Under the pieces are notes generated by a model. The model did no database searches, was not told the DNA's origin, and worked only from the letters and a program-made list of their open reading frames with translations. A DNA stretch of 64,000 nucleotides from NCBI RefSeq assembly GCF_028622875.1, contig NZ_CP117709.1, forward strand, positions 372,001 through 436,000. The letters are read 5' to 3'. The DNA comes from Streptomyces sp. MMBL 11-1 (GTDB lineage: Bacteria > Actinomycetota > Actinomycetes > Streptomycetales > Streptomycetaceae). Both the position numbers and the translations under genes were made by a program. This document shows positions 14,190-62,308 of the stretch, one piece after another (positions within the stretch are counted from its first letter, which is position 1; every line of letters begins with the position of its first letter).

Positions 14190-14385
14190 GCCGGCTCTCC
14201 TACTGCATCGTCATTTCCGGGCTGCCTTGTTGCACGCAGCATAGGCGCCTTGTCGGGCCGGATCCGGTCAGGACGACCGAGGCTCCGAGCCCGATATTAC
14301 TCGCCAGTACACCCAGACTGTTACCCCTGAGCAAGCGCATCGCACTGTGACCTTGCCAACGCGGCAGACCCGTGCGTGCGTGACC

Positions 14386-14895
14386 TCAGTCTCGCAGAGC
14401 CGTGAACCGTCCCTGGTGGTAGACCAGTGGGCGACCGGCCCCCGAGGGCGAGCCTGCCACGGCTTCGGCGATGACGATGCGGTGGTCCCCCGCCGGAACG
14501 CGGGACACGACCCGGCAGACCAGCCAGGCGGACACGTCCGCCAGCAGCGGAACGCCTTCGGGGCCGCTGCTCCAGTCGGTCGACGGGCCGAAGCGGTCGG
14601 CTCCGCTGCGGGCGAAGGTCGCGGCCAGTTCCCGCTGGTGCTCGCCGAGTATGTGGACGCCGACGTACGCGGCTTCGGACAGCACGGGCCAGCTGGAGGA
14701 GGACGTACCGACACCGAAGGAGATCAGCGGAGGTTCGGCGGCGACGGAGGTCAGCGAGGTGGCGGTGAAGCCGACCGGCCGCTCGCCCGCGGCGGTGATC
14801 ACGGCCACGCCCGCGGCGTGGCGGCGGAAGACGGAGCGGAAGAGTTCGGGGGTGGCGGCCGTCGGGGCAGGGGCGAGATCGCGCGTTGCCGTCAT
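14386..14895 (-). CDS. Flavin reductase family (FMN-binding split barrel) protein
   Basis: This 169-residue protein has the flavin reductase-like FMN-binding fold. FRRHAAGVAVITA near residue 25, VGFTATSLTSVAAEPPLISF (FMN phosphate loop) and a C-terminal DHRIVIAEAV are the conserved blocks of the HpaC/NADH:flavin oxidoreductase family. Such proteins supply reduced flavin to partner monooxygenases or act alone. No partner oxygenase lies next to it. A CGTCA/TGACG dyad at 15022-15034 lies 127 bp upstream. Confidence 0.88.
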   Translation of the reverse strand: MTATRDLAPAPTAATPELFRSVFRRHAAGVAVITAAGERPVGFTATSLTSVAAEPPLISFGVGTSSSSWPVLSEAAYVGVHILGEHQRELAATFARSGADRFGPSTDWSSGPEGVPLLADVSAWLVCRVVSRVPAGDHRIVIAEAVAGSPSGAGRPLVYHQGRFTALRD

Positions 14896-15091
14896 GGCTG
14901 TGTCCTTCCGCGGAAGTGGCGTACGGGTCCGTGGGTGCTCAGACACCCGGACAACGCGCACTCGCATGGCGGGCGAGGTCCCCATGGGCCCGGCCGTGAA
15001 GAAGGAGTTCTGACGACATAACGTCAGACTGACGATGCTGAGTGGGCGCAGTCAAGAGCGTCCCGGATTGTGGGAGATGCGTCACGCCCCG

Positions 15092-15418
15092 TCACATGGC
15101 GTGCCCCAGCGCCGCGACGACGTCGACGGTGCGGGGCTGGCCGGATGCCCGGCGGACCACCTCGCCCTCGGCGTCGAGCACCAGGACGGTCGGCGTCTTC
15201 GTGATGTCCAGCCGCCGCACCAGCGCGAGATGGGCCTCGGCGTCGACCTCGATGTGGGCGACCCCGTCGACCATCCCGGCCACGTCGCCGAGGGTGCGGC
15301 GGGTCGCCCGGCACGGCTGGCAGAAGGCGCTGGAGAACTGGACGAGTGTCGCGCGCTCCCCGAGTTCCGCGCCGAGTTGGGATGCGTCGAGCCGCTGTCC
15401 GGTTGTCCGGCGGTCCAC
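15092..15418 (-). CDS. Thioredoxin-family protein
   Basis: This 108-residue protein starts at a GTG with AGGAGG 6-7 bases upstream. The active site FCQPCRAT (CxxC) is near residue 30, and the cis-Pro loop KTPTVLVLDAEG is near residue 75. It has no signal peptide, so it should act in the cytoplasm as a thiol-disulfide oxidoreductase. CQPC differs from the CGPC of housekeeping thioredoxins, which usually indicates a specialised partner. Confidence 0.88.
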   Translation of the reverse strand: MDRRTTGQRLDASQLGAELGERATLVQFSSAFCQPCRATRRTLGDVAGMVDGVAHIEVDAEAHLALVRRLDITKTPTVLVLDAEGEVVRRASGQPRTVDVVAALGHAM

Positions 15419-15645
15419 GTGTGCCTCCTGATCAGAGTTCTTCCCCAGAGGTAGCACCGGCCGTCGCCCGCGCATTCCCCGCGGCCCCGGGGGCATACGC
15501 ACGTGACGAGAATCTCGCGCCCCGCGTCCGTCGGGACTGGCCAGGGGCTCGCGCATGGGGCACCATCGCCACAATGCCGAAAACCTACGGCTGCGTAACT
15601 TCCGCCGGGAGAACCACCCAGGCGCTGAAGAAGGGTCTTCTCCAG

Positions 15646-16368
15646 ATGGCAGAACTCGTCTATCGACCGGTCATCGGCGCCGCTCGCACCCTGTTCAAGG
15701 CGCTCGACCTGAAGATCGACACTCAGGGTTCGGAGCACATCCCGAAGACCGGTGGTGCGGTGCTGGTCAGCAACCACATCAGTTATCTCGATTTCATCTT
15801 CACCGGCCTCGGCGCTCTGCCGCAGAAGCGGCTGGTGCGGTTCATGGCGAAGGAATCGGTCTTCCGGCACAGGATCTCCGGTCCGCTGATGCGGGGAATG
15901 AAGCACATCCCGGTCGACCGTGACCAGGGCGAGGACGCGTACGCCCACGCGCTTCGGTCGCTGCGTTCCGGTGAGATCGTCGGAGTGTTCCCCGAGGCCA
16001 CCATCTCGCAGTCCTTCACCCTGAAGAGCTTCAAGTCGGGCGCCGCGCGCCTCGCCCAGGAGGCCGGGGTCCCGCTGATCCCGATGGCGCTCTGGGGCAC
16101 GCAGCGGATCTGGACGAAGGGGCGGCCGCGCAATTTCCAGCGCAGCCACATCCCGGTCACCATCCGCGTCGGCGAGCCCATGGAGGCACCTTCCGACCAG
16201 TACGCCGGCGCCATCACCCGGCGGCTTCGGGAGCGGGTCCAGGAACTGCTGGAGGCCGCGCAGCGGGCCTACCCGGTGCGTCCGAAGGACGCGAGCGACA
16301 CCTGGTGGGTGCCGGCCCATCTCGGCGGTACGGCCCCGACGCCCGCCGAGGTGCGCGAGCTCGGCTGA
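15646..16368 (+). CDS. 1-acyl-sn-glycerol-3-phosphate acyltransferase-like protein
   Basis: About 240 residues from the ATG at 15646; an upstream ATG at 15573 would add 24 residues. PlsC family motifs are VSNHISYLDF (NHxxxxD, catalytic), GEIVGVFPEATIS (FPEG-like, here FPEA) and VPLIPMALWG. It transfers an acyl chain to lysophosphatidate or a related acceptor at the inner face of the membrane. The G to A change in the FPEG block is seen in some actinobacterial paralogues. Confidence 0.87.
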   Translation: MAELVYRPVIGAARTLFKALDLKIDTQGSEHIPKTGGAVLVSNHISYLDFIFTGLGALPQKRLVRFMAKESVFRHRISGPLMRGMKHIPVDRDQGEDAYAHALRSLRSGEIVGVFPEATISQSFTLKSFKSGAARLAQEAGVPLIPMALWGTQRIWTKGRPRNFQRSHIPVTIRVGEPMEAPSDQYAGAITRRLRERVQELLEAAQRAYPVRPKDASDTWWVPAHLGGTAPTPAEVRELG

Positions 16369-16436
16369 CGGCCGGCCGTGACGGCCGCCCGCCTCACTGC
16401 TCGGCCCGGTGCGGTGGTGCGGGGCGGCGGGCGGGT

Positions 16437-17036
16437 TCAGAGGCTCCCGGGGAGGTTCCGCCAGAGCTCCGAGCGGTCACGCGCGCCCCTCAGCGCGCGG
16501 AAGATCACCTCGGGTGGCGCGCCATGGACCACGGGATAGTCGACTTCACCGAACTCTTCGCGCGCCACCCACGCCAACCGCTCCCCCTCCAGGGAGAACT
16601 GCGCGTCGATGCCCGGCTTGTTACCCCGGGGGTCCACCCGCTTCCAGCGCCCGGACCCGGGAAGCCGCAGGGCGACCAGTCCATGGACCATCGGGTTCGT
16701 CCCGTCGTCGTCGGCGAGCCGCTGGTAGCAGAGGCCGGCCGGGATGGAGCGGGCCCGCAGCAGGGCCACGAGCGCGATCGACTTCGCGTGACAGATGCCG
16801 GTCCGGGCGGCGAGCACCTCGGAGGCGCGCCAGGTGACGCGCGGGTCCCCCGAGTCGGCGGAGTGCGCAATGGTGTCGCGGACGTACTCGAAGGCGGCCC
16901 GCGCGTATGCGTATGCGGTGTCGGCGTCGAGCGCGAGGCGGGTCATTGCCTCCCGGACCCGGGGATGCTCATGGTCGATGGCCTCGTCGGCGGCCAGATA
17001 AGCGTCGATGTCGGGGGACTGCTGTGTCAGCTCCAT
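16437..17036 (-). CDS. Transglutaminase-like cysteine protease family protein
   Basis: This 199-residue protein carries the catalytic triad of the transglutaminase-like fold: Cys in AARTGICHAKSIALVALLR near residue 81, His in MVHGLVALR near residue 117 and Asp in VDPRGNKPG near residue 135. It has no signal peptide. Bacterial members are usually peptidases or amidases rather than cross-linkers. The substrate is unknown. Confidence 0.85.
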   Translation of the reverse strand: MELTQQSPDIDAYLAADEAIDHEHPRVREAMTRLALDADTAYAYARAAFEYVRDTIAHSADSGDPRVTWRASEVLAARTGICHAKSIALVALLRARSIPAGLCYQRLADDDGTNPMVHGLVALRLPGSGRWKRVDPRGNKPGIDAQFSLEGERLAWVAREEFGEVDYPVVHGAPPEVIFRALRGARDRSELWRNLPGSL

Positions 17037-50302: not shown

Positions 50303-51307
50303 ATGAGCGGGACATCGCTGGGTTCGCAGCCGAGGGACACGCCACCGGCGTTCGTGCCGGTCGACCAGGTGACCGAGACGTGTCTCGTGCGGGTCGCCGG
50401 CTCGAGTCCCGACCACGTCAGCGCGCTCGCGCAGTGCCCGGACGACCTCCCGCCGATCCTCGTGCACCGGCCGACCATGCGGGTGATCGACGGCGCGCAC
50501 CGCCTGCGAGCGGCCAAGCTGCGCGGGGACGCCACCATCGCCGTGCGGTTCGTCGACGGCACCGAGGAGGACGCGTTCGTCCTGGCCGTGAGCGTCAACG
50601 TGACCCAGGGGCTGCCCCTGACGCTGGCCGACCGTACCGCCGCCGCCTCCCGGATCCTCGCGTCGCACCCGCACGTGTCGGACCGCCTGATCGCGTCGAC
50701 AGCCGGATTGTCCACCAAGACCGTGGCCGCGCTCCGGCGGCGTGCAACCGGGGAAATACCTCAGTTGCACACCCGCCTCGGCCGCGACGGGAAAGTGCGG
50801 CCGCTCGACGCCTCCCACGGGCGCACGATGGCGAGTCAGGCGATTTCGAACAATCCAGATCTTTCGTTGCGGGCGATCGCCCGCATCGCCGGAATATCGG
50901 TCGGCACCGCCAGGGACGTCCGGGAAAGAATGCGCCGCGGCGAGGATCCCATTCCGCCGCGGTATCGCCTTTCCACCGGAAACCGTACGGAGAACAACGC
51001 GCCGGAAAGCAGCGCGCCGGGCCGGAAAACCGGCGGAGACAACGGCGCCGACGGCCCGTCCCGCGCCGAACGGGACCGGTTCCTGCTCTCGCTGCGCACC
51101 GATCCGTCGTTGCGGTTCTCCGAGGTCGGCCGGGCGCTCCTGCGGCTGCTCGACGCCAACACCCTCGACGCCGCGCAGTGGGACCGCCTCGCCGCCGCCG
51201 TCCCCCAGCGCTGGTCACCGGTGGTCGCCGACCTCGCCATGGACTGCGCGGCCGACTGGTCGGCGCTCGCCTGCCGGGTCCGCGGCCAGGTCCGCGCCAG
51301 CGCGTGA
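50303..51307 (+). CDS. StrR/NovG-type pathway-specific transcriptional activator
   Basis: 334 residues with GGAGG 8 bases upstream. The N-terminal ParB-like region contains MRVIDGAHRLRAAKLRGDAT, FVLAVSVNVTQGLPLTLADR and SHPHVSDRLIASTAGLSTKT. GRDGKVRPLDASHGR and a helix-turn-helix LSLRAIARIAGISVGTARDV follow near residue 195. This matches the StrR family that activates streptomycin, novobiocin (NovG) and glycopeptide clusters. It probably drives the minus-strand NRPS operon and perhaps the operon at 53895. Its last 93 bp overlap the end of the transporter gene on the other strand. Confidence 0.92.
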   Translation: MSGTSLGSQPRDTPPAFVPVDQVTETCLVRVAGSSPDHVSALAQCPDDLPPILVHRPTMRVIDGAHRLRAAKLRGDATIAVRFVDGTEEDAFVLAVSVNVTQGLPLTLADRTAAASRILASHPHVSDRLIASTAGLSTKTVAALRRRATGEIPQLHTRLGRDGKVRPLDASHGRTMASQAISNNPDLSLRAIARIAGISVGTARDVRERMRRGEDPIPPRYRLSTGNRTENNAPESSAPGRKTGGDNGADGPSRAERDRFLLSLRTDPSLRFSEVGRALLRLLDANTLDAAQWDRLAAAVPQRWSPVVADLAMDCAADWSALACRVRGQVRASA

Positions 51308-52570
51308 GTCCGGCGCGCACGCCACGGCGATCGCCGCCACCCCCTGGACCACGGCGAACAGCGCGACCACCGGAAGCAGCGCCGACGAGCCGCCGGTGAC
51401 CGCCACCGCGACCAGCGGCCAGAAGCTGGAGATCGTGACGCCCACCTGGTAGGTCACGGCGATCGCGGAGAACCGCACCATGGTCGGGAACAGGTCCACC
51501 AGGAACGCCGCCAGGCCACCGTAGATCGCTCCGTGCGCGATGGTCAGCGCGGGAAGGAACACCAGGGCGACCAGTACCGGATCGCCCGAGGACAGCCAGG
51601 CGCCCGCCGGGACCATCGCCGCCACCGAGACCACGTAGCCGAAGATCATGACCGGCCGGCGGCCGAACCGATCGGACAGCGCGCCGAACACCGGCAGGGT
51701 CACGCACTCCCCCAGGGCCGCGATCATCAGCCCGGTCAGCACGGCCGACCGCACCTGCGGCCCGGCCTCCGCCGCGTGCGCCACCAGGAACACGGTGAAC
51801 ATCGCGATCACCGACCCGGTGCCGAGGGAGGCGAGGATGCCGATCACCACGCGGCGCGGCCACTGCCGCAGCACCGTGGCCACCGGCACCCGGGCGGCGC
51901 GGTTCTCCGCCCGGCCGCGCACGAACTCCGGTGTCTCCTCGATCCCCAGCCGGACCCAGATGCCGATGCCGACCAGGACGATCGACGCCAGGAACGGCAG
52001 CCGCCATCCCCAGGTCAGGAAGGACTCCTCGGGCAGCTCGGAGATCAGCACGAAGGTCAGGTTGCTGGCGAACAGCGCCAGCGCGAAGCCCATCGCGGGC
52101 CAGCTGCTGAAGAAGCCCCGGCGTCCGGGCGGGCCGTGTTCGGTGCTGAGCAGCACCGCGCTTCCCCATTCGCCACCGATGCCGATGCCTTGGGCGACGC
52201 GCAACGTCACCAGCAGGACGGGCGCGAGGACGCCGGCCGTCTCGTAGGTGGGCAGCAGGCCGACGCCGAACGTGGCGATGCCCATGACGAGCAACGTCCA
52301 CACCATCATCGACTTGCGGCCCACCCGGTCGCCGAAGTGGCCGAACAGCAGGCCGCCCAGCGGGCGCGCGACGAAGCCGGCCGCGTAGGTGGCGAACGAG
52401 GCGAGCACACCGCCGGCGGCCGACGATCCGGGGAAGAACAGCGGGCCGAACACCAGCGCGGACGCCGTCGCGTAGAGATAGAAGTCGTACCACTCGATGG
52501 CGGTGCCGATCGTGCTCGCGATCAGCACCCGGCGGGCCGAGCGGGGGGCCGAGGTCACCCCTGCCGTCAT
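51215..52570 (-). CDS. MFS transporter of the metabolite:H+ symporter (ProP/ShiA-like) family
   Basis: 451 residues, about 12 membrane segments. IGTAIEWYDFYLYATASALV opens the protein, the loop 2-3 motif is GHFGDRVGRKSMMV, the family mark is AQGIGIGGEWGSAVLL, and the loop 8-9 motif is DRFGRRPVMI. Members usually import organic acids or osmolytes, though in clusters they can export products. It starts within the stop of the sulfatase-like gene (ATGA), so the two are translated together. Its C-terminal tail is hydrophilic and overlaps the activator gene antisense. Confidence 0.93.
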   Translation of the reverse strand: MTAGVTSAPRSARRVLIASTIGTAIEWYDFYLYATASALVFGPLFFPGSSAAGGVLASFATYAAGFVARPLGGLLFGHFGDRVGRKSMMVWTLLVMGIATFGVGLLPTYETAGVLAPVLLVTLRVAQGIGIGGEWGSAVLLSTEHGPPGRRGFFSSWPAMGFALALFASNLTFVLISELPEESFLTWGWRLPFLASIVLVGIGIWVRLGIEETPEFVRGRAENRAARVPVATVLRQWPRRVVIGILASLGTGSVIAMFTVFLVAHAAEAGPQVRSAVLTGLMIAALGECVTLPVFGALSDRFGRRPVMIFGYVVSVAAMVPAGAWLSSGDPVLVALVFLPALTIAHGAIYGGLAAFLVDLFPTMVRFSAIAVTYQVGVTISSFWPLVAVAVTGGSSALLPVVALFAVVQGVAAIAVACAPDSRAGADLAADPAGERRPVGRAVHGEVGDHR

Positions 52571-53721
52571 GCGTCCTCATCGGACACGAGAACCCGCCCG
52601 CCGAGCTCGTCGGGATCGGCGGCGAGGTCATAGGCCCACACCTGCCGCCCGTCCGCCTCCCAGATCACCTTCCGCCCGTCCGCCCGCACGGCGTGCAGCG
52701 CCTTCAGGTCCGGGTAGTCGTCCGAGGCGGCGGCCCGTTCCTGCGGGAAGTAGGTCTCCGAGTACGCCTCGCGGGACGCCCCGGTGCCGTCCGCGAAGAA
52801 CTCGGTCAGCGAGGCGCCGTCCGACGACAGCGGGTCCAGCCCGAGATGGTCGAGCACGGTCGGCATGATGTCGACCAGCCGGACCTGGCTGTCCACGCTC
52901 GTCCCCTCCGGCACCCCGGGTCCGCTGATGACCAGCGGCACGTGCTGGGTCGCGTCGAACAGCAGGCAGCCGTGACCCTCCTCGTACGGGTGGCCGAGGT
53001 CGCCGGCGTGGTCGTTGGGGTACCACCCGGCCAGGTCCTCCCCGTGGTCGGAGAAGCACACCACCAGCATCGACTCGACGTCGTGGCCCATCTCGGCGAT
53101 GCGGCGCAGCAGGAGCTGCACGTAGTGGTCGGTGTAGGCGATCTCGCCCTCGTACGGGTTCGCCACCTCGACGCCGACGTCCTCCGGCGGCTCGTACGGC
53201 CAGTGCGCGTCGAAGAAGTGCGCGAACAGGAAGAACGGGCCGGTGCCGTCCAGCGACCGGAGCCAGTCGGTGGCGCGTTCGACCACCAGCGGGGCGCGCT
53301 TGAGTGCCAGCCCGCGCAGCTTCACGTCGCCGACCGACAGCGGGTCCCGGCCGTCGGGCAGCAGCGGGATCTCGTCGTCGTAGAAGTCGAACCCGCGGTC
53401 CATCCCGTACCACTGGTTCAGGCCGGGGCAGGAGACCACCGCGCCGGTCGTGTACCCGGCCGCCGACAGGCGCTCCGCCAGGGTCGGCACCCGCTTGTCC
53501 AGCGTTTCGCGGAAGAGGTGTCTGATCCCGTGGCGGGGCGGCTGGAGCCCGGTGAACACCGTGGCGTGGCTGACCGGCGTCAGGGGGCACGACGAGATCG
53601 CCTGCGTGAAGCTGACCCCGCTCGCGCGCAGTCGCTCGATGCCGGGGTACTTCCCCGAATAGGCCACGTCGGCGCGCACGGTGTCCAGGGAGATGAACAG
53701 GATGTTCGGCTGTGCGGTCAC
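52567..53721 (-). CDS. Alkaline phosphatase/sulfatase superfamily hydrolase
   Basis: 384 residues starting with GTG (AGG 8 bases upstream). Metal-site blocks are ILFISLDTVRAD at the N-terminus and CFSDHGEDLAGW near residue 225, followed by a GHPYEEGH segment. The nucleophile region reads PLTPVSHATVFTG: the position of the formylglycine Cys of true sulfatases (CxPSR) is Thr. That points to a Thr-nucleophile phosphatase, phosphodiesterase or phosphotransferase-like member rather than a classical sulfatase. No signal peptide, so it is cytoplasmic. It is encoded with the transporter and near two sulfotransferases. Confidence 0.85.
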   Translation of the reverse strand: MTAQPNILFISLDTVRADVAYSGKYPGIERLRASGVSFTQAISSCPLTPVSHATVFTGLQPPRHGIRHLFRETLDKRVPTLAERLSAAGYTTGAVVSCPGLNQWYGMDRGFDFYDDEIPLLPDGRDPLSVGDVKLRGLALKRAPLVVERATDWLRSLDGTGPFFLFAHFFDAHWPYEPPEDVGVEVANPYEGEIAYTDHYVQLLLRRIAEMGHDVESMLVVCFSDHGEDLAGWYPNDHAGDLGHPYEEGHGCLLFDATQHVPLVISGPGVPEGTSVDSQVRLVDIMPTVLDHLGLDPLSSDGASLTEFFADGTGASREAYSETYFPQERAAASDDYPDLKALHAVRADGRKVIWEADGRQVWAYDLAADPDELGGRVLVSDEDA

Positions 53722-53894
53722 CGGGATACCTCGGTATTCCTCTGTCGACTCCAGCGGCCCCGAAAGGTAACAACGAGCTCGCGGCGTACGACAACGACGC
53801 GTTGTGCGACCTGAACACCCGTGCTGAACAGGCCATCCGGCTCCTACAGTTACGCGGCGGAGACTCCACGACCGTGAAGCGAGGGAGCATTCAC
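53722..53894. promoter_or_regulatory. Divergent promoter region between the sulfatase-like gene and the radical SAM operon
   Basis: 173 bp. Two dyads are visible: GGGATACC/GGTATTCC at 53723-53740, overlapping the ribosome site of the minus-strand gene, and ACAACG-ACG-CGTTGT at 53791-53805. Either could bind a regulator. No StrR-type consensus was seen. Confidence 0.45.
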
Positions 53895-55559
53895 ATGGCG
53901 CGCAAGTTGTCCCTGGCACTGGAGCTGTATGCCGACGCGAACGGCACCGTCGACCAGCGTTACATCGATCAGATGCGCGACCAGGACGCCGAACCGGTGC
54001 CGGTCGATCCCACCTTGCCGAGGTTCACCCTCGTCGTCGGGCCCTCGCCGTTCACCATGCCGCGCGGCTGGGAGTTCTTCCTCACCTCTCCGTACGAGGG
54101 TGCGACGTACATCTCGACCGTGCTGCACAACGCCGGCTATCCGGTGCGCATCGTCGACGTCCGCTACACCCCGAACCCGTTGCAGGCGGCGTACGAGCAG
54201 ATCATCGAAGGCACCGACGTGCTCGGGGTGTGCACGTTCGAGGACAACTTCCCGTTCTGCCGGGCGCTGATGGCGATGGTCCGCGCGTCGCACCCGGACA
54301 TACCGATCATCTGCGGTGGCTCGCTGGTCACTTCGGCTCCGTCGGTGTTCATGTCGGACACCGACTGCGACATCGCGGTGATCAGCGAGGGCGAGATCAC
54401 CATCCTGGAGCTGATGGAGAGTTACACCCGCGGCTCGTGGAAGCAGGACCTCCCGACCGTCAAGGGCATCTGCTACCGGGACGAGAAGGGCAACGCCCGC
54501 CGCACGCCGCCGCGCGGCCAGATGATGGATCTCGACGCGCTGCCCCGGATGCGGCTCGACCTGTGGCCGCAGGCGCGGTCGCCGCTCGGCATGCAGCCCC
54601 AGGTGATCTCGTCCTACAGCCGCGGCTGCAAGATGGACTGCTCGTTCTGCTACCGCACCACCCCGCAGGTGCGGGCGAAGTCGCCGGAGAAGATGGACCG
54701 CGACCTCGACTGGCTGAAGACCCAGTACGGCGTGGAATTCTGCTTCTTCGTCGACCTCACGTTCAGCTCGCACCGCGGCCAGACCATCGAGATGTGCGAC
54801 GTGATCTCCCAGCACGATCTGCGGTGGACCTGTCTGACCCGGTGCGCCGACATGGACGTACCGCGCATCGACGCGATGCGGGAGGCGGGCGCGGACATCA
54901 TCCTGTACGGCGTCGAGTCGCTGGGCCGCGAGGTGTTGCGCGAGGCCCGCAAGGGCAGCAGCGAGAACCTGACCGTCCGCGCGATGCGCACCACGTTCGA
55001 GGGCGGCGTGCGGTTCGGCTCGCTGCTCATCGTCGGTCTGCCGAACGAGACCGAGGAGTCCCTGGCGGACATGGTGCAGTTCGCCGAGCAGTACAACCAC
55101 GTGACCCGGGTGAAGTACCTGTCGGCCATGCCCGGCACGACGGTGTACCAGGACGCGGTGCGGAACAAGGTGATCCGCACCGAGGTCGACCACCTGAACT
55201 GGCTGTCGGTCGAACAGGCCCTGCACGAGGACGAGTTCCTGAACGTGAGCGGGCTGCCCGAGCAGGTCTGCCGGGACGCGTACAAGCGGGTGTACGACGC
55301 CTATCAGCCCGGCCCGGTGATGGACTTCCAGCACTGGCCGGAGCACTTCCAGTACTTCCACCCGCAGCCGGCCGACGGGACCGAGCGGTCGACGTCGTAC
55401 GCCGGTACCGGCTGGCGCGCGCAGTGGAGTTCGGCCGCCGCGCCCCTGGTGCCCGGGTCCGAGCAGTACACCTTGGACAAGGTGGCCGACCCGGAGGTGG
55501 CCGCGGTCGGGAGCACGCTGATGGACTGCGGCGCGAAGAAGCTCGCGGTGGGGGGCTGA
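53895..55559 (+). CDS. B12-binding-domain radical SAM enzyme
   Basis: 554 residues; the ATG at 53895 is preceded by GAGGGAG. An N-terminal cobalamin-binding-like Rossmann domain (about residues 35-175; TSPYEGATYISTVLHNAG, VLGVCTFEDNF, IPIICGGSLVTSAP) precedes the radical SAM core. The cluster motif is YSRGCKMDCSFCYRTTP (CxxxCxxC) near residue 255, with downstream LYGVESLGREVLREARKG and LIVGLPNETEESLADM. It belongs to the BchE-like class that often C-methylates unactivated carbons, though not all members do. First gene of the plus-strand operon; the next gene starts 3 bp after its stop. Confidence 0.93.
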   Translation: MARKLSLALELYADANGTVDQRYIDQMRDQDAEPVPVDPTLPRFTLVVGPSPFTMPRGWEFFLTSPYEGATYISTVLHNAGYPVRIVDVRYTPNPLQAAYEQIIEGTDVLGVCTFEDNFPFCRALMAMVRASHPDIPIICGGSLVTSAPSVFMSDTDCDIAVISEGEITILELMESYTRGSWKQDLPTVKGICYRDEKGNARRTPPRGQMMDLDALPRMRLDLWPQARSPLGMQPQVISSYSRGCKMDCSFCYRTTPQVRAKSPEKMDRDLDWLKTQYGVEFCFFVDLTFSSHRGQTIEMCDVISQHDLRWTCLTRCADMDVPRIDAMREAGADIILYGVESLGREVLREARKGSSENLTVRAMRTTFEGGVRFGSLLIVGLPNETEESLADMVQFAEQYNHVTRVKYLSAMPGTTVYQDAVRNKVIRTEVDHLNWLSVEQALHEDEFLNVSGLPEQVCRDAYKRVYDAYQPGPVMDFQHWPEHFQYFHPQPADGTERSTSYAGTGWRAQWSSAAAPLVPGSEQYTLDKVADPEVAAVGSTLMDCGAKKLAVGG

Positions 55560-55562
55560 CCC

Positions 55563-56582
55563 GTGTCCGCTCAGGACGGCCCGATCCTGATCATCGGGAC
55601 CGAACGCTCCGGATCGAACCTGCTGCGGCTGGTGCTCGACGCGCACACGCGGATCGCGGTCCCGCACCCGCCGCACTTCATGCGGTACCTGTCCGGCATC
55701 CCGTACGACGGTGATGTCGACGCGATGGTGGGCGACGCGATGCGGCTGCTGCGCGATCACATCCACCCGTGGCCGCACGTGATCGACCGGGCCGCGGTGA
55801 CCGAGGCGGCCGGCCCGTCGCTGTTCGGGGTGGTGTCGGCGATCTACGACCAGTACCGCGTCGCGGAGGGCGCGGCCCGGTGGGGGTGCAAGAGCACGTT
55901 CATGGTCGAGCACGTCGACGAGGTGCTCATCACTCTCCCGCACGCCCGGTTCCTCTGGCTGGTGCGTGATCCCCGCGATGTGGCCGCGTCCGCGAAGCGG
56001 GCCGTGTTCGGCCACTGCCACCCGTACCGGATGGCGCTGCGGTGGAGGGCCGAACAGGAGCTCGCCCGCGCGGCCCTGGAGCGGTGGGGGCCGGAGGTGG
56101 TGCACCTGGTGCGGTACGAGGACCTGGTGTCCGAGCCCGAGCGGGAGATCCGGGCGATCTGCGACTTCATCGGGGAGGCGTTCGAGCCCGCGATGCTGGC
56201 GCACCATCTCGGTGGCAACGCCCGGGTGACCGCGTCGCTGTCGGCGTCCTGGCGCACGGCGGGCGACCCGATCACCACGGCCCGGATCGGCGCCCACCGG
56301 CGGGGGCTGTCCGACCGGGAGCGGCGGGAGGTCGAGAGCGTGACCGCGCGGGCGATGGAGAAGCTTCGCTACCCGTGCGACCTGGCCTCACTGGACGAAC
56401 CGGCTCCCGGCCCGCTCGGCGTCGCGCTGCGCGGGTTCGCGGTCCGGATGGCGGTGGAGGCGCGATCGCTGCGCACCGACCGCAACCACTTCCGGCGCTG
56501 GCGGCGCGACGCCACCGTCCGCCGGCTGCGCCGCCGCGCGAAGCACCGCCGCACCCTTGTTCCGGCAGGAGAGAGCAGATGA
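55563..56582 (+). CDS. PAPS-dependent sulfotransferase 1
   Basis: 339 residues starting with GTG. The 5'-phosphosulfate loop is IIGTERSGSNLLRLVLDAH at residues 10-28, and the 3'-phosphate site is FLWLVRDPRDVAAS near residue 140. It would transfer sulfate from PAPS to a hydroxyl or amine. The C-terminus is rich in Arg. Its stop overlaps the methyltransferase ATG. It differs clearly from the second sulfotransferase of the operon, so the two are not a recent duplication. Confidence 0.9.
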   Translation: MSAQDGPILIIGTERSGSNLLRLVLDAHTRIAVPHPPHFMRYLSGIPYDGDVDAMVGDAMRLLRDHIHPWPHVIDRAAVTEAAGPSLFGVVSAIYDQYRVAEGAARWGCKSTFMVEHVDEVLITLPHARFLWLVRDPRDVAASAKRAVFGHCHPYRMALRWRAEQELARAALERWGPEVVHLVRYEDLVSEPEREIRAICDFIGEAFEPAMLAHHLGGNARVTASLSASWRTAGDPITTARIGAHRRGLSDRERREVESVTARAMEKLRYPCDLASLDEPAPGPLGVALRGFAVRMAVEARSLRTDRNHFRRWRRDATVRRLRRRAKHRRTLVPAGESR

Positions 56583-57322
56583 ACGAGACGGGAAGCGTCC
56601 GCACGCACTTCGCCGACCGGGCGAGCACCTACGACCGGTCCAGTTCGTGGTGCACCGACGACGCGCTCGGCGAGCTGATGCTGTCCGCGGCCGCGCCCCG
56701 GCCGGGCGACGCGGTCCTGGACGTGGCGTGCGGCACCGGACTGGTGTCGAGGCTGTTCGCCGGGCGGGTGCGGCGGCTGACCGGCGTGGACATCACGCCG
56801 GAGATGGCCGAGCAGGCGCGCGACGTGCTCGACGAACTGGTGATCGCCCCGGCGGAGGAGCTGCCGTTCGACGACGGCACGTTCGACCTCGTGGTGTGCC
56901 GTCAGGGGATCCAGTTCATGACGCTGCCCGACGCGGTGCGGGAGATGGTGCGGGTGACCCGGCCGGGTGGGCGGGTCGTACTGACCCACCTGTGCGCCTA
57001 CGGGGACGACGACCGCGACGAGTACGCGGAGATCCTGCGGCTGCGCAACCCGGCCCGGCGGCACTTCTTCCGGCCCGGCGACGTCGAGGCCCTGCTCACC
57101 GGCGCGGGGTGCGACCCGGTGCGGTCGCAGCGGTACGTGTCGGCGGAGGACGTGGACGTCTGGTCGGACAACGGCGCGATCGGCGAGGACGCGCGGGAGG
57201 CCATCCGGGACCGCTACCGGAAGGCGTCGCCCGCGTTCCGCGCACGGCACGCGGTGGCCGAGGCGGACGGGCGGATCACCGACCGGATGCTGTTCGTCGT
57301 CGCTTCGGGAACGAGGGTCTGA
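56579..57322 (+). CDS. Class I SAM methyltransferase (paralogue of the fused one downstream)
   Basis: 247 residues; ATGA overlap with the sulfotransferase. Motif I is VLDVACGTGLVSRLFAGRV near residue 44, VDITPEMAEQAR is motif II and FDLVVCRQGIQF is motif IV. It shares with the C-terminal half of the protein at 57773 the entry segment S-W-x-T-D-(D/E), DV(A/C)CG(T/S)G, GVD/GLD(I/L)TPEMA and the same overall length. They are paralogues within one operon and may act on related positions or form a dimer. Confidence 0.9.
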   Translation: MNETGSVRTHFADRASTYDRSSSWCTDDALGELMLSAAAPRPGDAVLDVACGTGLVSRLFAGRVRRLTGVDITPEMAEQARDVLDELVIAPAEELPFDDGTFDLVVCRQGIQFMTLPDAVREMVRVTRPGGRVVLTHLCAYGDDDRDEYAEILRLRNPARRHFFRPGDVEALLTGAGCDPVRSQRYVSAEDVDVWSDNGAIGEDAREAIRDRYRKASPAFRARHAVAEADGRITDRMLFVVASGTRV

Positions 57323-57323
57323 C

Positions 57324-57776
57324 ATGGAACCGGACCAGTCCCCCGCCGACGGCGTGCGGGCCGCGTTCCTCGCCGAGGCGGCCACCGCCGCGCGGTACAC
57401 CTACTTCGCGCAGGTCGCCGGGATCGAGGGCCACACCGAGGCGGCCCGGGTGTTCGGCGAGCTCGCCGAGAGCGTGGCCTGCGCCGCCCACGGGCACCTG
57501 GACGTGCTGCGCGACCTGCTGGGCGGCGACGACCCGGGCACCGGCCGCACGCTCGGCGACACCCGCCGCAACCTCGCCGCGGCGATCAGCGGCGACCTCG
57601 GGGAGGCCACCGAACGCTACCCCGGCCTGGCCGCGCGGGCCCACATGGACGGCATGGCCGATCTGGCGAGCTGGCTGGAGACGCTGTGCACGCTGAAGAA
57701 GACGCACGTGGACCGGCTGGAACAGGCCCTCACCGGGCTGGACGAGCCGCGGTTCGCCGGGAACGGAGCGCCATGA
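57324..57776 (+). CDS. Rubrerythrin/ferritin-like protein with altered diiron ligands
   Basis: 150 residues with the four-helix pattern of rubrerythrin's ferritin-like domain: FLAEAATAARYTYFAQVAGIEG, then FGELAESVACAAHGH, then GEATERYPGLAARAHMDGM, then LCTLKKTHVDRL. E18, H56, E94 and H128 are in place. The Glu of each ExxH motif is replaced (C53 in CAAH and K125 in KKTH). There is no C-terminal rubredoxin zinc site. The standard diiron centre is therefore unlikely to form in the usual way. It may be a repurposed oxidase, a structural partner or a metal-free scaffold. ATGA overlap with the next gene. Confidence 0.8.
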   Translation: MEPDQSPADGVRAAFLAEAATAARYTYFAQVAGIEGHTEAARVFGELAESVACAAHGHLDVLRDLLGGDDPGTGRTLGDTRRNLAAAISGDLGEATERYPGLAARAHMDGMADLASWLETLCTLKKTHVDRLEQALTGLDEPRFAGNGAP

Positions 57777-59704
57777 CCACCGACTACGACGCCGAGGCGA
57801 TCACCGTCTACTCCGGGCTGGAGGCGGTGCGCCGCAACCCGTCCATGTACGTCGGGTCGACCGGCCCGGACGGCGCCCACCACCTGGTGCTCGAACTGGT
57901 CGACAACGCCGTGGACGAGGCCGCCGCCGGGCACTGCGGCGCGATCTCGGTGGAGCTGTACGACGACGGCTCCTGCTCGGTCACCGACGACGGCCGGGGC
58001 ATCCCCACCGCCCCGCACCCGGAGGCCGGGATCCCGGCGTGCGAACTCGTGCTCACCACACTGCACTCGGGGGGCAAGTTCGACCACTCCTCGTACGCGA
58101 CGTCGGCCGGGCTGCACGGTGTCGGCCTGGCCTGCGTGAACGCGTTGTCGGAGTGGTTGCGCCTGGAGGTGTGGCGCGACGGCGCGCACCACAGTGAGTC
58201 GTTCGTCCGGGGCTCGGTCGAGACCCCGCTCAAGCGGGGCGGTGACAGCGACCGCCGCGGCACCCGGGTGTGGTTCCGCCCGGACCCGGAGATCTTCTCC
58301 TCCTGTGTGCTCGACGCCGAAGTGCTGCACGCCCGGCTGCTCGACATCGCGTATCTGCACCCGGGCCTGCGCGTCGACCTCATCGACCACCGCACCGGGC
58401 GGGACGAGTCGCTGTACGAGATGACCGGGGTGCGGGGCCTGCTCACCCACCGCGCCCGCGACACCGAGAAGGTGCACGCCGAGCCGGCCACCTTCACCTG
58501 GGCGGGCGACGGGTGCGTGATCGACGCCGCCGTCCAGTGGACCGAGGGGTACGCGGAGCAGATCTTCAGCTACGTCAACACCATCCGCACCGACCTGGGC
58601 GGGTCGCATGTGGACGCCCTGCGCCGGGCGCTGGCCGGGGTGGTGGCCGAACATCTCGGCCCGGCCGCGGACAAGATGACCGTGGTCGACATCCTGGAGG
58701 GGCTGACCGCGGTGATCGCGATCCGGATCCCGGACGCGCGGTTCGACGGCCAGACCAAGCGCACCCTGCGCAACGAAGCGGCGGGCGCCCGCGTGTTCGA
58801 CGTCGTCACCGAGCAGGCGCGGCGGGCGCTGGCGGCCGACCCGGAGCTGGCCCGCCGTATCGCCGAACGGGCCATCGACGCCAGTCGGGCCCGGCTCGCC
58901 GCGCGGCTGGCCGGGCGGACGGCCCGCTCCCGGCCCCGGGCCGTCGAGGTCGACTACGCGGTCTACCAGCGGCAGTTCGGGATCCGGTCGAAGGACTGGC
59001 ACGACTCGTGCTCGTGGCTCACCGACGAGGACCTGCTCGGCAAGCACGCGGAGCTGTGCGCGGTGCCGCCGGACGCGCGGATGCTGGACGTGTGCTGCGG
59101 CAGCGGTGTCGTCGGCGGCGCGTTCCGCGGCCGGGTCGGTGAGATGGTCGGGCTGGACCTCACCCCGGAGATGGCCGCGCTCGCCGCCACCCGGCTGGAC
59201 GTGGTGCACCAGGGCACCGTCTACGACCTGCCGTTCCCCGACGCCAGTTTCGACCTGGTGGTCACCCGGGAGGTGCTGCATCTGCTGCCCCGGCCGGAGC
59301 TGCCGGTGTCGGAGATCTTCCGTGTGCTGCGGCCCGGCGGACAGTTCATCGTCGGGCAGATCGTGCCGTACGCGGACGTGGACGCGTTCTGGATGTTCCG
59401 CGTGTTCAAGAAGAAGCAGCCGCTGCTGTACCAGATGTTCCGTGAGGAGGACTTCCGGGCGCTGCTCACCGGTGGCGGCTTCACCGATGTGCGGATGGAG
59501 GAGTACTTCCTGTGGGAGTCGATCGACCGGTGGATCGACACCCACGAGACGACACCGGCGAGCCGGCAGGAGATCTACCGCCTCTACTACGACGCGCCGC
59601 GCGAGGTGCGCGCCGTACACCCCTTCGAGGTGCTGCCGGACGGCTCGGTGCGCGACCGGTGGCGGTGGTGCGTGTACTCGGTGCGGAAGCCCGGCCATGC
59701 CTAG
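57773..59704 (+). CDS. GyrB-type ATPase/transducer region fused to a SAM methyltransferase
   Basis: 643 residues. Residues 1-386 align throughout with the 43-kDa N-terminal region of DNA gyrase B. E41 and N45 are in LELVDNAVDEAAAGHC and D73 in TDDGRGIP. LHSGGKFDHSSY, the ATP lid SAGLHGVGLACVNAL, R135 (equivalent of the aminocoumarin-contact Arg), GGSHVDALRRAL and the transducer QTK at 327-329 follow. ATP binding and hydrolysis residues are intact. Where TOPRIM should begin, after the ARLAARLAGRTAR helix, a methyltransferase starts (about 395-643; MLDVCCGSGVVGGAF, GLDLTPEMAALAA). There is no TOPRIM or tail, so it cannot be a topoisomerase. The sequence is continuous, with no frameshift. It could be a self-resistance binding module, an ATP-driven clamp or a scaffold. 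Confidence 0.93.
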   Translation: MTTDYDAEAITVYSGLEAVRRNPSMYVGSTGPDGAHHLVLELVDNAVDEAAAGHCGAISVELYDDGSCSVTDDGRGIPTAPHPEAGIPACELVLTTLHSGGKFDHSSYATSAGLHGVGLACVNALSEWLRLEVWRDGAHHSESFVRGSVETPLKRGGDSDRRGTRVWFRPDPEIFSSCVLDAEVLHARLLDIAYLHPGLRVDLIDHRTGRDESLYEMTGVRGLLTHRARDTEKVHAEPATFTWAGDGCVIDAAVQWTEGYAEQIFSYVNTIRTDLGGSHVDALRRALAGVVAEHLGPAADKMTVVDILEGLTAVIAIRIPDARFDGQTKRTLRNEAAGARVFDVVTEQARRALAADPELARRIAERAIDASRARLAARLAGRTARSRPRAVEVDYAVYQRQFGIRSKDWHDSCSWLTDEDLLGKHAELCAVPPDARMLDVCCGSGVVGGAFRGRVGEMVGLDLTPEMAALAATRLDVVHQGTVYDLPFPDASFDLVVTREVLHLLPRPELPVSEIFRVLRPGGQFIVGQIVPYADVDAFWMFRVFKKKQPLLYQMFREEDFRALLTGGGFTDVRMEEYFLWESIDRWIDTHETTPASRQEIYRLYYDAPREVRAVHPFEVLPDGSVRDRWRWCVYSVRKPGHA

Positions 59705-60950
59705 CCGCGCCGTGGATCACCCGGTCGCCGAGGTCGTGCGCGGGCTGGAGGTGCTGCGGCCGCTGCGGGGCACGCCGGTGGACGGCTTCCGCGCGAAGGT
59801 GCGCGATCTCGTGGTCGTCGCGTCCAGTTCGCGGGGCGGGTCGAGCATGCTCGCCGAGCTGCTGCGGGCCTCGCCGCACCTGCTGCACCTGCGCGGTGAG
59901 CTGAATCCGTTGCTGCGGCTGGTCGGCCTCGACCACCCGCACAGTGGCACCGGATCCGACGTGCTGGAGGCGGCGCACTGGCACGGGCTCCCACCACGGT
60001 CCCGGGCGTTGTTCGAGGCGGAACTGGCACTGGACGCGGGCTCTCCCGGCACCGGCGTGGAGAACCTGGCGGCGGACGCGGTGTGGCGGCTTCTCGTGCA
60101 GTGGCCGGATCGTGGTCTCGATCCCGTCGATCTGATGCGGACCGCCGAGGCGTTGCTGGACCATGATCTCCCCCGGTTCGCACGGGCGCTGATCGGCAAG
60201 GCCGGCGTGGACCCGCGGTACTACGACCTTCCCGGGCGGTCGCCGGGACCACGACCGGCCGGGCCGCCCGGCGACGTACTGCTCGAAGAGCCGCCGTTCG
60301 TCCTCCCCCGTCCCTGGCGGCCCGCGGACGAACACGATCTCGCCACGAAGCCCCTGGTGATCAAGACGCCGGGCAACGCCTACCGACTCGGCTTCCTGCG
60401 GGCGGTGTTCCCCCACGCACGGCTGCGGGTGCTGCACCTGACCAGGAACCCGGCCGCGTCGGTCAACGGCCTGATCGACGGGTGGCTGCACCACGGGTTC
60501 CACGCGTACCGGCTGGACGAACCGCTGCGCATCGCCGGATACGCCGATGTGCGGCCGGCCGACCGGCACTGGTGGAAGTTCGACCTGCCACCCTGCTGGC
60601 CCGCGTACACCGCCGCCGCCCTGCCCCGGGTCTGCGCCCACCAGTGGTGGTCGAGTCACCGTGCGGTGCTCGCGCACGGGGCGGACCACACGGTGCGGTT
60701 CGAGGACCTGATCAGCACTCCGCGCGGGCGCGCGGACGCCGTCGAGCGGGTCGCGGACTGGCTGGGGATCCCGTTCGACGGGCGGCTGAAGCGGGCCGCG
60801 ACCGACGGCATCGCCGCCACGGTGTCCACCGCCGCGCCCCGCCCCGGCCGGTGGCGGGCGCGGGAAGAGGAAGTCAGATCGGGACTGAGCGCCGACGTGC
60901 TCACGATGGCGGAGAGGCTCGGCTATGCCCGTGACGACGACTGGATCTGA
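59697..60950 (+). CDS. PAPS-dependent sulfotransferase 2
   Basis: 417 residues, starting 8 bp before the end of the fusion gene. The 5'-phosphosulfate loop is VVVASSSRGGSSMLAELLRA near residue 40 and the 3'-phosphate site is LRVLHLTRNPAASVNGLIDG near residue 248. A long central region (about 75-215) without close counterpart in sulfotransferase 1 suggests a different or larger acceptor. It overlaps the next gene by 26 bp. Confidence 0.87.
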   Translation: MPSRAVDHPVAEVVRGLEVLRPLRGTPVDGFRAKVRDLVVVASSSRGGSSMLAELLRASPHLLHLRGELNPLLRLVGLDHPHSGTGSDVLEAAHWHGLPPRSRALFEAELALDAGSPGTGVENLAADAVWRLLVQWPDRGLDPVDLMRTAEALLDHDLPRFARALIGKAGVDPRYYDLPGRSPGPRPAGPPGDVLLEEPPFVLPRPWRPADEHDLATKPLVIKTPGNAYRLGFLRAVFPHARLRVLHLTRNPAASVNGLIDGWLHHGFHAYRLDEPLRIAGYADVRPADRHWWKFDLPPCWPAYTAAALPRVCAHQWWSSHRAVLAHGADHTVRFEDLISTPRGRADAVERVADWLGIPFDGRLKRAATDGIAATVSTAAPRPGRWRAREEEVRSGLSADVLTMAERLGYARDDDWI

Positions 60951-61878
60951 GCTGAGCACCCACGGGGGCCCGGGGTGGGTGCCCCGGGCGGCGTCGCATG
61001 TGGACGAAGTCGCGGCCGGGGAGGTGTGGGCGCCGTGCGGGTACCGGTCGGAGACGGCCGCGCTGCGGTCGGTGCTGCTGGTCCGCCCGCCGGACAGCAT
61101 CGCTGCGGTGCGACGGCCGGGGGCCTCGCTCATGCTCGGGCCGGTGGACCTCCCGGCGATGCGGGCGCAGTACGACGCGCTGGCGGACCGCCTGCGGGGC
61201 CACGGGGTCGAGGTACACCTGGCCTCCCCCGCGGCGACGCCGAACGTGGTGTTCGCACGCGACCTGTTCTGGATGACCCCGGCCGGGGCGGTGGTGGCGC
61301 GGATGGCGTCGGCGCAGCGGGCCGGCGAGGAACGGCATGCCGCGCTCGCGCTGGCCGGGGCGGGGTTCCCGATCCTGCGCACGGTCTCCGGCACCGCCGT
61401 GTTCGAGGGCGCCGACGCCCTGTGGATCGACCCGTCGACGGTGGTCGTCGGTACCGGGTTCCGCACGAACGCGGCCGGTGCGGCCGAGGTCGCCTCGGCG
61501 GTCGCGGGGCTGGGGGCGCGGGTGGTGACGGTGCCGCTGGCGCCGGGTGTGCAGCACCTGCTGGGGACGGTGGTGTTCCTCGACCCGTCCACCGCCGTCG
61601 TCCACCGGGCGGCGAGCCCGCCGGAGCTGACGGCGCTGCTCGCCGAGTACGGCTATCGGGTGATCGCGCTGCCGCCGGACGAGGAACTGCTGGTGGGGCG
61701 CGGGATGAACCTGCTGGTACTCGCACCGGGGCGGGTGCTGATGCCCGCGGGCTGCCCGGGAATCCGGCGGACGCTGGAGCGGGCGGGGGTGGCCGTCGAC
61801 GCGATCGACATCGGCGCGTACCTGCGGGCGGCCGGCGGCATCGGCTGCGTCACGGGGGTGGTGCGCCGTGAGCACTGA
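60925..61878 (+). CDS. Arginine deiminase/amidinotransferase superfamily enzyme
   Basis: 317 residues. The guanidino-modifying fold is shown by ATPNVVFARDLFWMTP (R112, D113), TAVFEGADALWID (E161), GVQHLLGTVVFLDP (H211) and the nucleophile GGIGCVTGVV (C308), so the Cys-His-acid set is complete. Length and pattern are nearest dimethylarginine dimethylaminohydrolase and bacterial arginine deiminase-like enzymes, and shorter than arginine deiminase (about 400). It could hydrolyse or transfer an amidine group from an arginine-derived unit, free or in a peptide. Confidence 0.88.
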   Translation: MPVTTTGSELSTHGGPGWVPRAASHVDEVAAGEVWAPCGYRSETAALRSVLLVRPPDSIAAVRRPGASLMLGPVDLPAMRAQYDALADRLRGHGVEVHLASPAATPNVVFARDLFWMTPAGAVVARMASAQRAGEERHAALALAGAGFPILRTVSGTAVFEGADALWIDPSTVVVGTGFRTNAAGAAEVASAVAGLGARVVTVPLAPGVQHLLGTVVFLDPSTAVVHRAASPPELTALLAEYGYRVIALPPDEELLVGRGMNLLVLAPGRVLMPAGCPGIRRTLERAGVAVDAIDIGAYLRAAGGIGCVTGVVRREH

Positions 61879-61897: not shown

Positions 61898-62308
61898 TCA
61901 CTGGGGCGGGTACACCGTGGGATCGTCCAGCGGCACCTTCAGCCAGGAGATCATCTGCCGGAGCTGGTGGTACGCCGCGAGCCGCTGCTCGTCGGAGTCG
62001 GCCTCCTCCGCCGCCGCGATCGGCTCCCACAGGCGGGGCACCATCACCGGCCCGAGTTCGAGCAGGCCGCCGCTGCCGCCGGTGGCCCACTTCGCCAGCA
62101 CGTACCGGACGATCGCGCCGACCGGGATGTCCAGGTTCCGGGACATCCCGCGCACGGTCTCCAGCGGATCGAGGAGCCCGTAGTCGACCACCTCGGCCTT
62201 GAAGTTGGCATGCGGGTCGTCCGGTGGCCAGCACCGTTCCCACTGGCGCAGCCGAACCGTCGGCGTACCGGTCACGTCGAGGGCCAGGTCATCCATGTCG
62301 CCGTCCAT
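61898..62308 (-). CDS. Unknown 136-residue protein encoded antisense within the operon
   Basis: A compact acidic protein with no membrane segment or signal. Recognisable blocks are LETVRGMSRNLDIPVGAIVRYVLAKWATGG and WLKVPLDDPTVYPPQ; the first has the look of a short helix-turn-helix-like segment. I recall small DUF families (DUF6027-like) of this appearance in actinomycete clusters, but I cannot assign it. Good GC third positions support a real gene. It faces the peptide gene with a 74-bp gap between starts, so the peptide gene probably has its own promoter. Confidence 0.65.
   Translation of the reverse strand: MDGDMDDLALDVTGTPTVRLRQWERCWPPDDPHANFKAEVVDYGLLDPLETVRGMSRNLDIPVGAIVRYVLAKWATGGSGGLLELGPVMVPRLWEPIAAAEEADSDEQRLAAYHQLRQMISWLKVPLDDPTVYPPQ

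Follow-up and report, generated by a model that had tools for sequence, protein, structure and literature searches.

In this study, we analyzed a 64,000-nucleotide stretch of the Streptomyces sp. MMBL 11-1 genome (contig NZ_CP117709.1, positions 372,001 to 436,000; hereafter the window), in which one gene joins a GyrB43-like ATPase-transducer module to a class I S-adenosylmethionine (SAM) methyltransferase. This gene is very probably the NucP/AcmP orthologue of a nucleoside-sulfamate cluster of the nucleocidin/ascamycin type, encoding a protein that acts in formation of the sulfamoyl group (-O-SO2-NH2), and the host presumably makes a sulfamate. The NucP family is known, genetically essential and biochemically unexplained, and it is shown here to be widespread and to have a conserved partner gene. 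This turns the finding into a question of mechanism, for which we tentatively propose an ATP-gated dimeric clamp working with two neighboring gene products, NucQ and NucL. Taken as a whole, a NucP/AcmP orthologue in a sulfamate cluster together with a clamp mechanism appears on balance to be the probable explanation.

As the initial annotation had described, the gene is uninterrupted (643 codons; Table 1) and lies inside a cluster of tailoring genes. A Pfam search of the 643-residue protein, proposed there as a check, detected the gyrase-type ATPase and transducer and, in the C-terminal half (residues ∼395-640), a Methyltransf_11 domain with a SAM-binding motif; no match to a TOPRIM domain was obtained. 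The match to the gyrase subunit B profile stopped at 391/639 and gave 380 bits vs 882.4, below a full-profile score. The fusion shares the ATP-site and transducer residues of the 43-kDa N-terminal fragment of DNA gyrase subunit B/ParE, whereas the TOPRIM domain and DNA-cleavage core of these proteins were not found in it.

The accompanying claim that no described enzyme has this architecture proved wrong, because NucP and AcmP are already known from the nucleocidin and ascamycin clusters. In Streptomyces calvus T3018, the nucleocidin producer (locus L017), the fusion is 65% identical to that of the window over 636 amino acids, and the window neighbors find counterparts at 51-78% among its radical SAM, sulfotransferase, methyltransferase, rubrerythrin-like and amidinotransferase-like genes. 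Genes of the J, K, L, N, O, Q and I types were all found around the window fusion. NucP of the S. calvus and S. virens nucleocidin clusters has the same architecture and has nucJ-, K-, L-, N-, O- and Q-like and sulfatase genes as neighbors in common with the window. Two differences from S. calvus were observed: its NucN-like gene lies upstream, whereas that of the window is directly downstream, and it has a 478-amino-acid sulfatase without an orthologue in the genome of the window. AcmP of Streptomyces sp. JCM9888 (658 amino acids, annotated as 'DNA topoisomerase II') lies beside the rubrerythrin gene acmQ (PMC4257720, Table 1), with acmO, acmN, acmM, acmL, acmK and acmJ as further neighbors; it is likened to the window protein by size, annotation and neighbors, its sequence not being aligned, and its cluster has extra 3'-phosphoadenosine-5'-phosphosulfate (PAPS) and alanyl-tRNA synthetase-like genes (PMC4257720). 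According to a deletion study in S. calvus, removal of nucI, G, J, K, L, N, O, Q or P abolished sulfamylation and not fluorination, with complementation in trans described in the legend to Figure 5, and sulfamate formation required two PAPS genes in addition to nine genes of the cluster; in the parts of that report used here, the contribution of NucP itself is left open and the biological route to this sulfamate is given as unsolved (PMC10946740). No mechanism for the fusion was found in the literature searched on this fusion and its mechanism.

Further investigation revealed strong conservation of the ATPase half. Eleven ATP-site residues (E41, N45, D48, E49, D72, R75, G76, G116, G118, Q327 and K329) were identical in 58/58 fusion rows, the window included (alignment A2), and in 10/10 gyrB/parE-type references, which at the sequence level argues for genuine ATP binding and turnover. 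In a rapidly computed maximum-likelihood phylogeny of the ATPase region, for which long branches were warned of and 24/65 inner branches were open, the 58 fusions were separated from the 10 gyrB/parE-type rows (one unannotated) by a branch with a Shimodaira-Hasegawa-like approximate likelihood ratio (SH-aLRT) support of 99. Because the fusions share one side of this branch and occur across wide taxa, one original fusion with later transfer would fit the data, a claim limited by the long branches, the unresolved deep forks and the small number of references. Descent of the fusion from the host's own gyrB was also considered and was unsupported, the gyrB/parE-type rows all lying on the other side.

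The methyltransferase half was modeled and searched separately, and the VIA-align list for the full model was dominated by the gyrase half. SAM-site residues D439, C441, C442, G443, G445 and D462 were invariant in the 58 rows of A2 and in 34 rows of a second alignment (A7), as were the C-terminal KKKQPL, WE--D-W, HP and D-WRW motifs in 34/34 rows of the latter. Mean column identity was 73% for the methyltransferase part (A7) vs 60% for the whole protein (A2). YcgJ/BH2331-type class I methyltransferases (1xxl and 1vl5) are 22-25% identical to this domain, and their entry titles say only putative methyltransferase; the class I assignment is based on motif and fold, and methyl transfer is putative. 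Over its full length, the domain is paralogous to NucL, the methyltransferase encoded by a gene of its own (alignment A5: 22 loci and the window, from 37 found), with domain positions R105, D143, E188, D191, W193, D195, H222 and D234 common to all 10 rows of five NucL/NucP pairs. A metagenomic protein of 900 amino acids (P0065) joins NucL to the end of NucP (66% identity across 241 residues) and was, judged by length, the single such case among the 120 homologues listed. When L058 and L069, in which the fusion is broken or cut, were excluded, NucL lay directly downstream of NucP on the same strand at four loci (L054, L057, L061 and L063) and on the opposite strand at two (L035 and L043).

The conserved partner gene is nucQ. 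Using the window protein in tblastn, we found NucQ at 54/62 fusion loci, in 54/54 directly upstream of the fusion and on the same strand. A profile of 29 sequences (alignment A3: 28 loci and the window) raised the count to 58/62, or 58 of the 59 evaluable loci, with L028 as the single true exception; the stretches of the other three (L055, L063 and L069) start within the fusion gene. This profile matched rubrerythrins and sulerythrin (best E 2.8e-45), whose diiron ligands E53, H56 and E126 are, in contrast, not kept in NucQ: E53 was retained in 1/29 rows, H56 in 1/29 and E126 in 0/29, all three together in none, and position 126 was Lys or Arg in 28/29. E20 (24/29) and H129 (27/29) were mostly retained. 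Here, E53 and E126 were taken as ligands from a database entry title, and H56, E20 and H129 are what we take to be the remaining ligand positions. The published account of S. calvus NucQ likewise reports two iron-binding residues as lost (PMC10946740).

The occurrence of the fusion was examined in several data sets. A protein search gave 5861 matches among 7999 candidates scored, presumably including true gyrases, and all 120 matches listed (the window protein first) had both gyrase and methyltransferase Pfam domains. When named genomes were scanned with methyltransferase motifs as seeds, 78 loci were retained, of which 62 (L009-L070) matched the fusion and 16 the methyltransferase only; among the 62, L055, L063 and L069 were cut by a contig end (L069 covering residues 380-639 only) and the frame of L058 was broken. 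The fusion was present in 12/392 genomes of a genus sample, including that of the window, and in 1/396 genomes of a phylum sample, again that of the window. By record titles, taken as given, the loci belonged to Streptomyces, Sinosporangium, Micromonospora, Nonomuraea, Mangrovihabitans and Azospirillum, and to metagenome-assembled genomes (MAGs) of Proteobacteria, Deltaproteobacteria, Desulfobulbaceae, Myxococcota, Bacteriovorax, Gemmatimonadetes, Acidobacteriaceae, Armatimonadetes, Elusimicrobia and Wallbacteria. It should be noted that three cluster-bearing MAGs (L051, L057 and L067) are titled Bifidobacterium breve or Klebsiella pneumoniae, titles that look doubtful; the order sulfatase-like, radical SAM, NucQ, NucP at L051 and L067 is the same in Deltaproteobacteria-titled loci, for example L048. 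Two Bacteriovorax MAGs (L047 and L060) had the lowest fusion identity among near-full-length loci (43-44%); their NucN and NucO scored 26-31% and 26-28%, respectively. Carriage by phages was not found in a viral scan seeded on methyltransferase motifs (two loci, 27% identity over residues 434-529 only), nor carriage by plasmids among 223 plasmid records with a match, 0 of which covered 80% of the query. No split form was seen among the 12 positive genus genomes, as judged by frame length. Another genome of this sample, G222, encodes a free-standing 386-amino-acid GyrB43-like protein (L110, 12730-13890, +) that is 32% identical to the ATPase part of the window protein; its 20-kb stretch contained no other core gene save a weak methyltransferase match, and it was not counted as a split form.

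At the 44 loci outside the two actinomycete groups, we observed radical SAM genes at 32, NucQ at 36 (first count), NucO at 23, NucN at 24, NucK at 21, NucL at 23 and sulfatase-like genes at 20, counts that rest on fetched stretches, many of them cut short. In 24 NucP genomes searched whole, namely 22 of the 24 whose fetched locus had no NucN (L055 and L063 left out) and two positive controls (L048 and L070), NucN (weakest best E 1.9e-60) and NucO (weakest best E 4.0e-87) were found in 24/24, each split over two matches in G786 (L043). As this set consists largely of MAGs, some sequences may have been misbinned. NucN occurred in 13/392 genomes of the genus sample, the 12 with NucP and G222; the two counts are not independent, because at least three genomes are in both (identical coordinates). 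Alignments comprised 26 loci and the window for NucN (A4, from 37 open reading frames found) and 28 loci and the window for NucO (A6, from 41).

Among the ideas of the initial annotation (clamp, scaffold or decoy), the clamp is the favored one. Two copies of NucP would bind ATP and close through their GHKL-transducer domains as gyrase B does, and the closed clamp would hold NucQ and/or NucL in place of DNA. Cycles of ATP binding and hydrolysis might then place NucL and the fused methyltransferase on an intermediate of the sulfo or guanidino type, which could be handled by the sulfotransferases NucK and NucO and by NucN with its amidino-transfer fold. Such a model explains the retained dimerizing ATPase, the NucQ pairing and the NucP-NucL fusion, although the ATP-driven closure of the dimer, a NucP-NucQ-NucL complex and the identity of what is methylated are all our inference. 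On the broadest reading, NucP could possibly be an enzyme of a new type, an ATP-gated clamp derived from gyrase in which DNA cleavage was exchanged for methyl transfer and which carries out the unsolved sulfamate step with the iron-site-less NucQ and the paralogous NucL. The pathway would then be old and, as judged by record titles, horizontally spread over many phyla, and the handful of Streptomyces sulfamates described so far would greatly understate how common such products are. Specific mutants and protein partners to test are suggested by the conserved ATP and SAM sites, the pairing with NucQ, the fusion of NucP to NucL and the gene set found across phyla, and this gene set marks uncultured bacteria as possible sulfamate makers. 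Sulfamates are a class studied as synthetase-hijacking inhibitors (PMC12262901).

Several observations weigh against this interpretation. Neither ATPase nor methyltransferase activity of the NucP family is reported in the literature consulted, and the known cluster products have no added methyl group, so any methylation would have to target a protein or a cofactor, or else be transient. In structure prediction, another of the checks initially suggested, the monomer model had a predicted template modeling (pTM) score of 0.59 and its linker (residues 380-389) was of low confidence, so that no fixed domain-domain geometry is predicted. Some GHKL positions vary among the fusions (T164 kept in 57/58; Y5, R135 and T328 each in 53/58), and P0065 is a lone metagenomic sequence that may reflect an assembly error. 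An orthologue of the 478-amino-acid S. calvus sulfatase (Pfam Sulfatase, taken as NucG by size) was not found in the window cluster or its genome, where the single match reached 20.5 bits; as nucG is needed in S. calvus, the product here may be different or a variant, or may be absent altogether. At the eight closest loci (L009-L013, L019, L029 and L058), within the stretches fetched, that sulfatase likewise gave only 24-26% matches, to their other sulfatase. Finally, G222 has NucN and NucO without NucP, as an adjacent pair (L102, G222:C10:8000-27900, 14192-16488, -) beside a glycosyltransferase and a major facilitator superfamily (MFS) transporter; no other core gene was matched within 37 kb around the pair and no NucP-level match was found genome-wide. 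Thus, NucN and NucO can exist apart from NucP and may serve a different product, possibly in a different sulfo/amidino pathway.

Other explanations were also considered. An unlikely one, though the least unlikely of them, is a scaffold or chaperone whose ATP-driven opening and closing assembles or matures NucJ (B12-radical SAM) or NucQ, with the methyltransferase domain serving for binding only; the tight NucQ pairing and the rarely kept iron ligands of NucQ agree with this, whereas the conservation of the methyltransferase part, SAM site included, seems greater than a domain used for binding alone would require. Adenine nucleotides are ligands of GHKL pockets and the known products are adenosines, and the pocket might accordingly have ceased to be an ATPase and hold an adenosine-type substrate (sulfated adenosine) for presentation to the methyltransferase or sulfotransferases; this appears rather improbable, as E41, Q327, K329, G116 and G118, which bind or hydrolyze the triphosphate and are needless for a nucleoside, are identical in 58/58 rows. 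The initial proposal of a self-resistance decoy or guide for a gyrase-targeting product, to which the retained GyrB-type ATP pocket lends itself, is very improbable and was rejected: because nucP deletion in S. calvus removes a biosynthetic step (PMC10946740) and the neighbors are sulfamylation genes, the role is biosynthetic, and the known products act elsewhere, nucleocidin as an inhibitor of protein synthesis (PMC9113183) and dealanylascamycin by hijacking aminoacyl-tRNA synthetases, as shown in Plasmodium (PMC12262901). The main texts of PMC9113183, PMC12945691, PMC8694150 and PMC7017864 do not contain the word 'gyrase'. An assembly or annotation artefact at the junction, which the initial annotation had named as a possible refutation, can practically be dismissed, because the same fusion is present at the 62 loci and in the 12 genus genomes and nothing was found in its favor.

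Table 1. Coordinates of the fusion gene, its parts and neighboring genes in the window
Position	Strand	Feature	Remarks
50303..51307	+	Putative helix-turn-helix (HTH)-type regulator	Weak HTH_24 match, 22.1 bits; S. calvus counterpart 50% identical
51215..52570	-	MFS transporter	Retained at the eight closest loci
52567..53919	-	Sulfatase-superfamily protein	70% identical to the 389-amino-acid one of two in S. calvus; start uncertain
53712..55559	+	NucJ/AcmJ homologue, radical SAM with B12-binding domain	Start possibly further in
55563..56582	+	NucK/AcmK homologue, sulfotransferase	
56588..57322	+	NucL/AcmL homologue, SAM methyltransferase	Paralogue of fused methyltransferase
57324..57776	+	NucQ/AcmQ homologue, pseudo-rubrerythrin	3' end overlaps fusion gene start by 4 bases
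57773..59704	+	NucP/AcmP homologue, GHKL ATPase and transducer fused to class I SAM methyltransferase	643 amino acids
57773..58927	+	ATPase-transducer part, GyrB43-like	Residues 1-385
58955..59701	+	Methyltransferase part	Residues 395-643; SAM-site residues invariant
59697..60950	+	NucO/AcmO homologue, divergent sulfotransferase	
60925..61878	+	NucN/AcmN homologue, arginine-deiminase/amidinotransferase fold	C308 and H211 invariant in 27/27 aligned rows
61898..62308	-	DUF6027 protein, 136 amino acids	AcmM (142 amino acids) may be counterpart

Among the neighbors, the sulfatase-superfamily protein is, by its size, presumably NucI-like. Classical sulfatases carry a modified Cys/Ser in their motif; at this site the window protein (52567-53712, -) reads CPLTPVSHATVFTG, in which Thr seems to occupy the position, and the 478-amino-acid S. 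calvus sulfatase reads YTAAAHG, likewise with Thr. Both proteins may therefore be of the phosphodiesterase type or transferases, and not sulfatases. The sole TTA codon among the 11 cluster genes counted is in the NucJ homologue. As S. calvus nucJ is also reported to have a TTA codon (PMC7017864), bldA-type control may be conserved.
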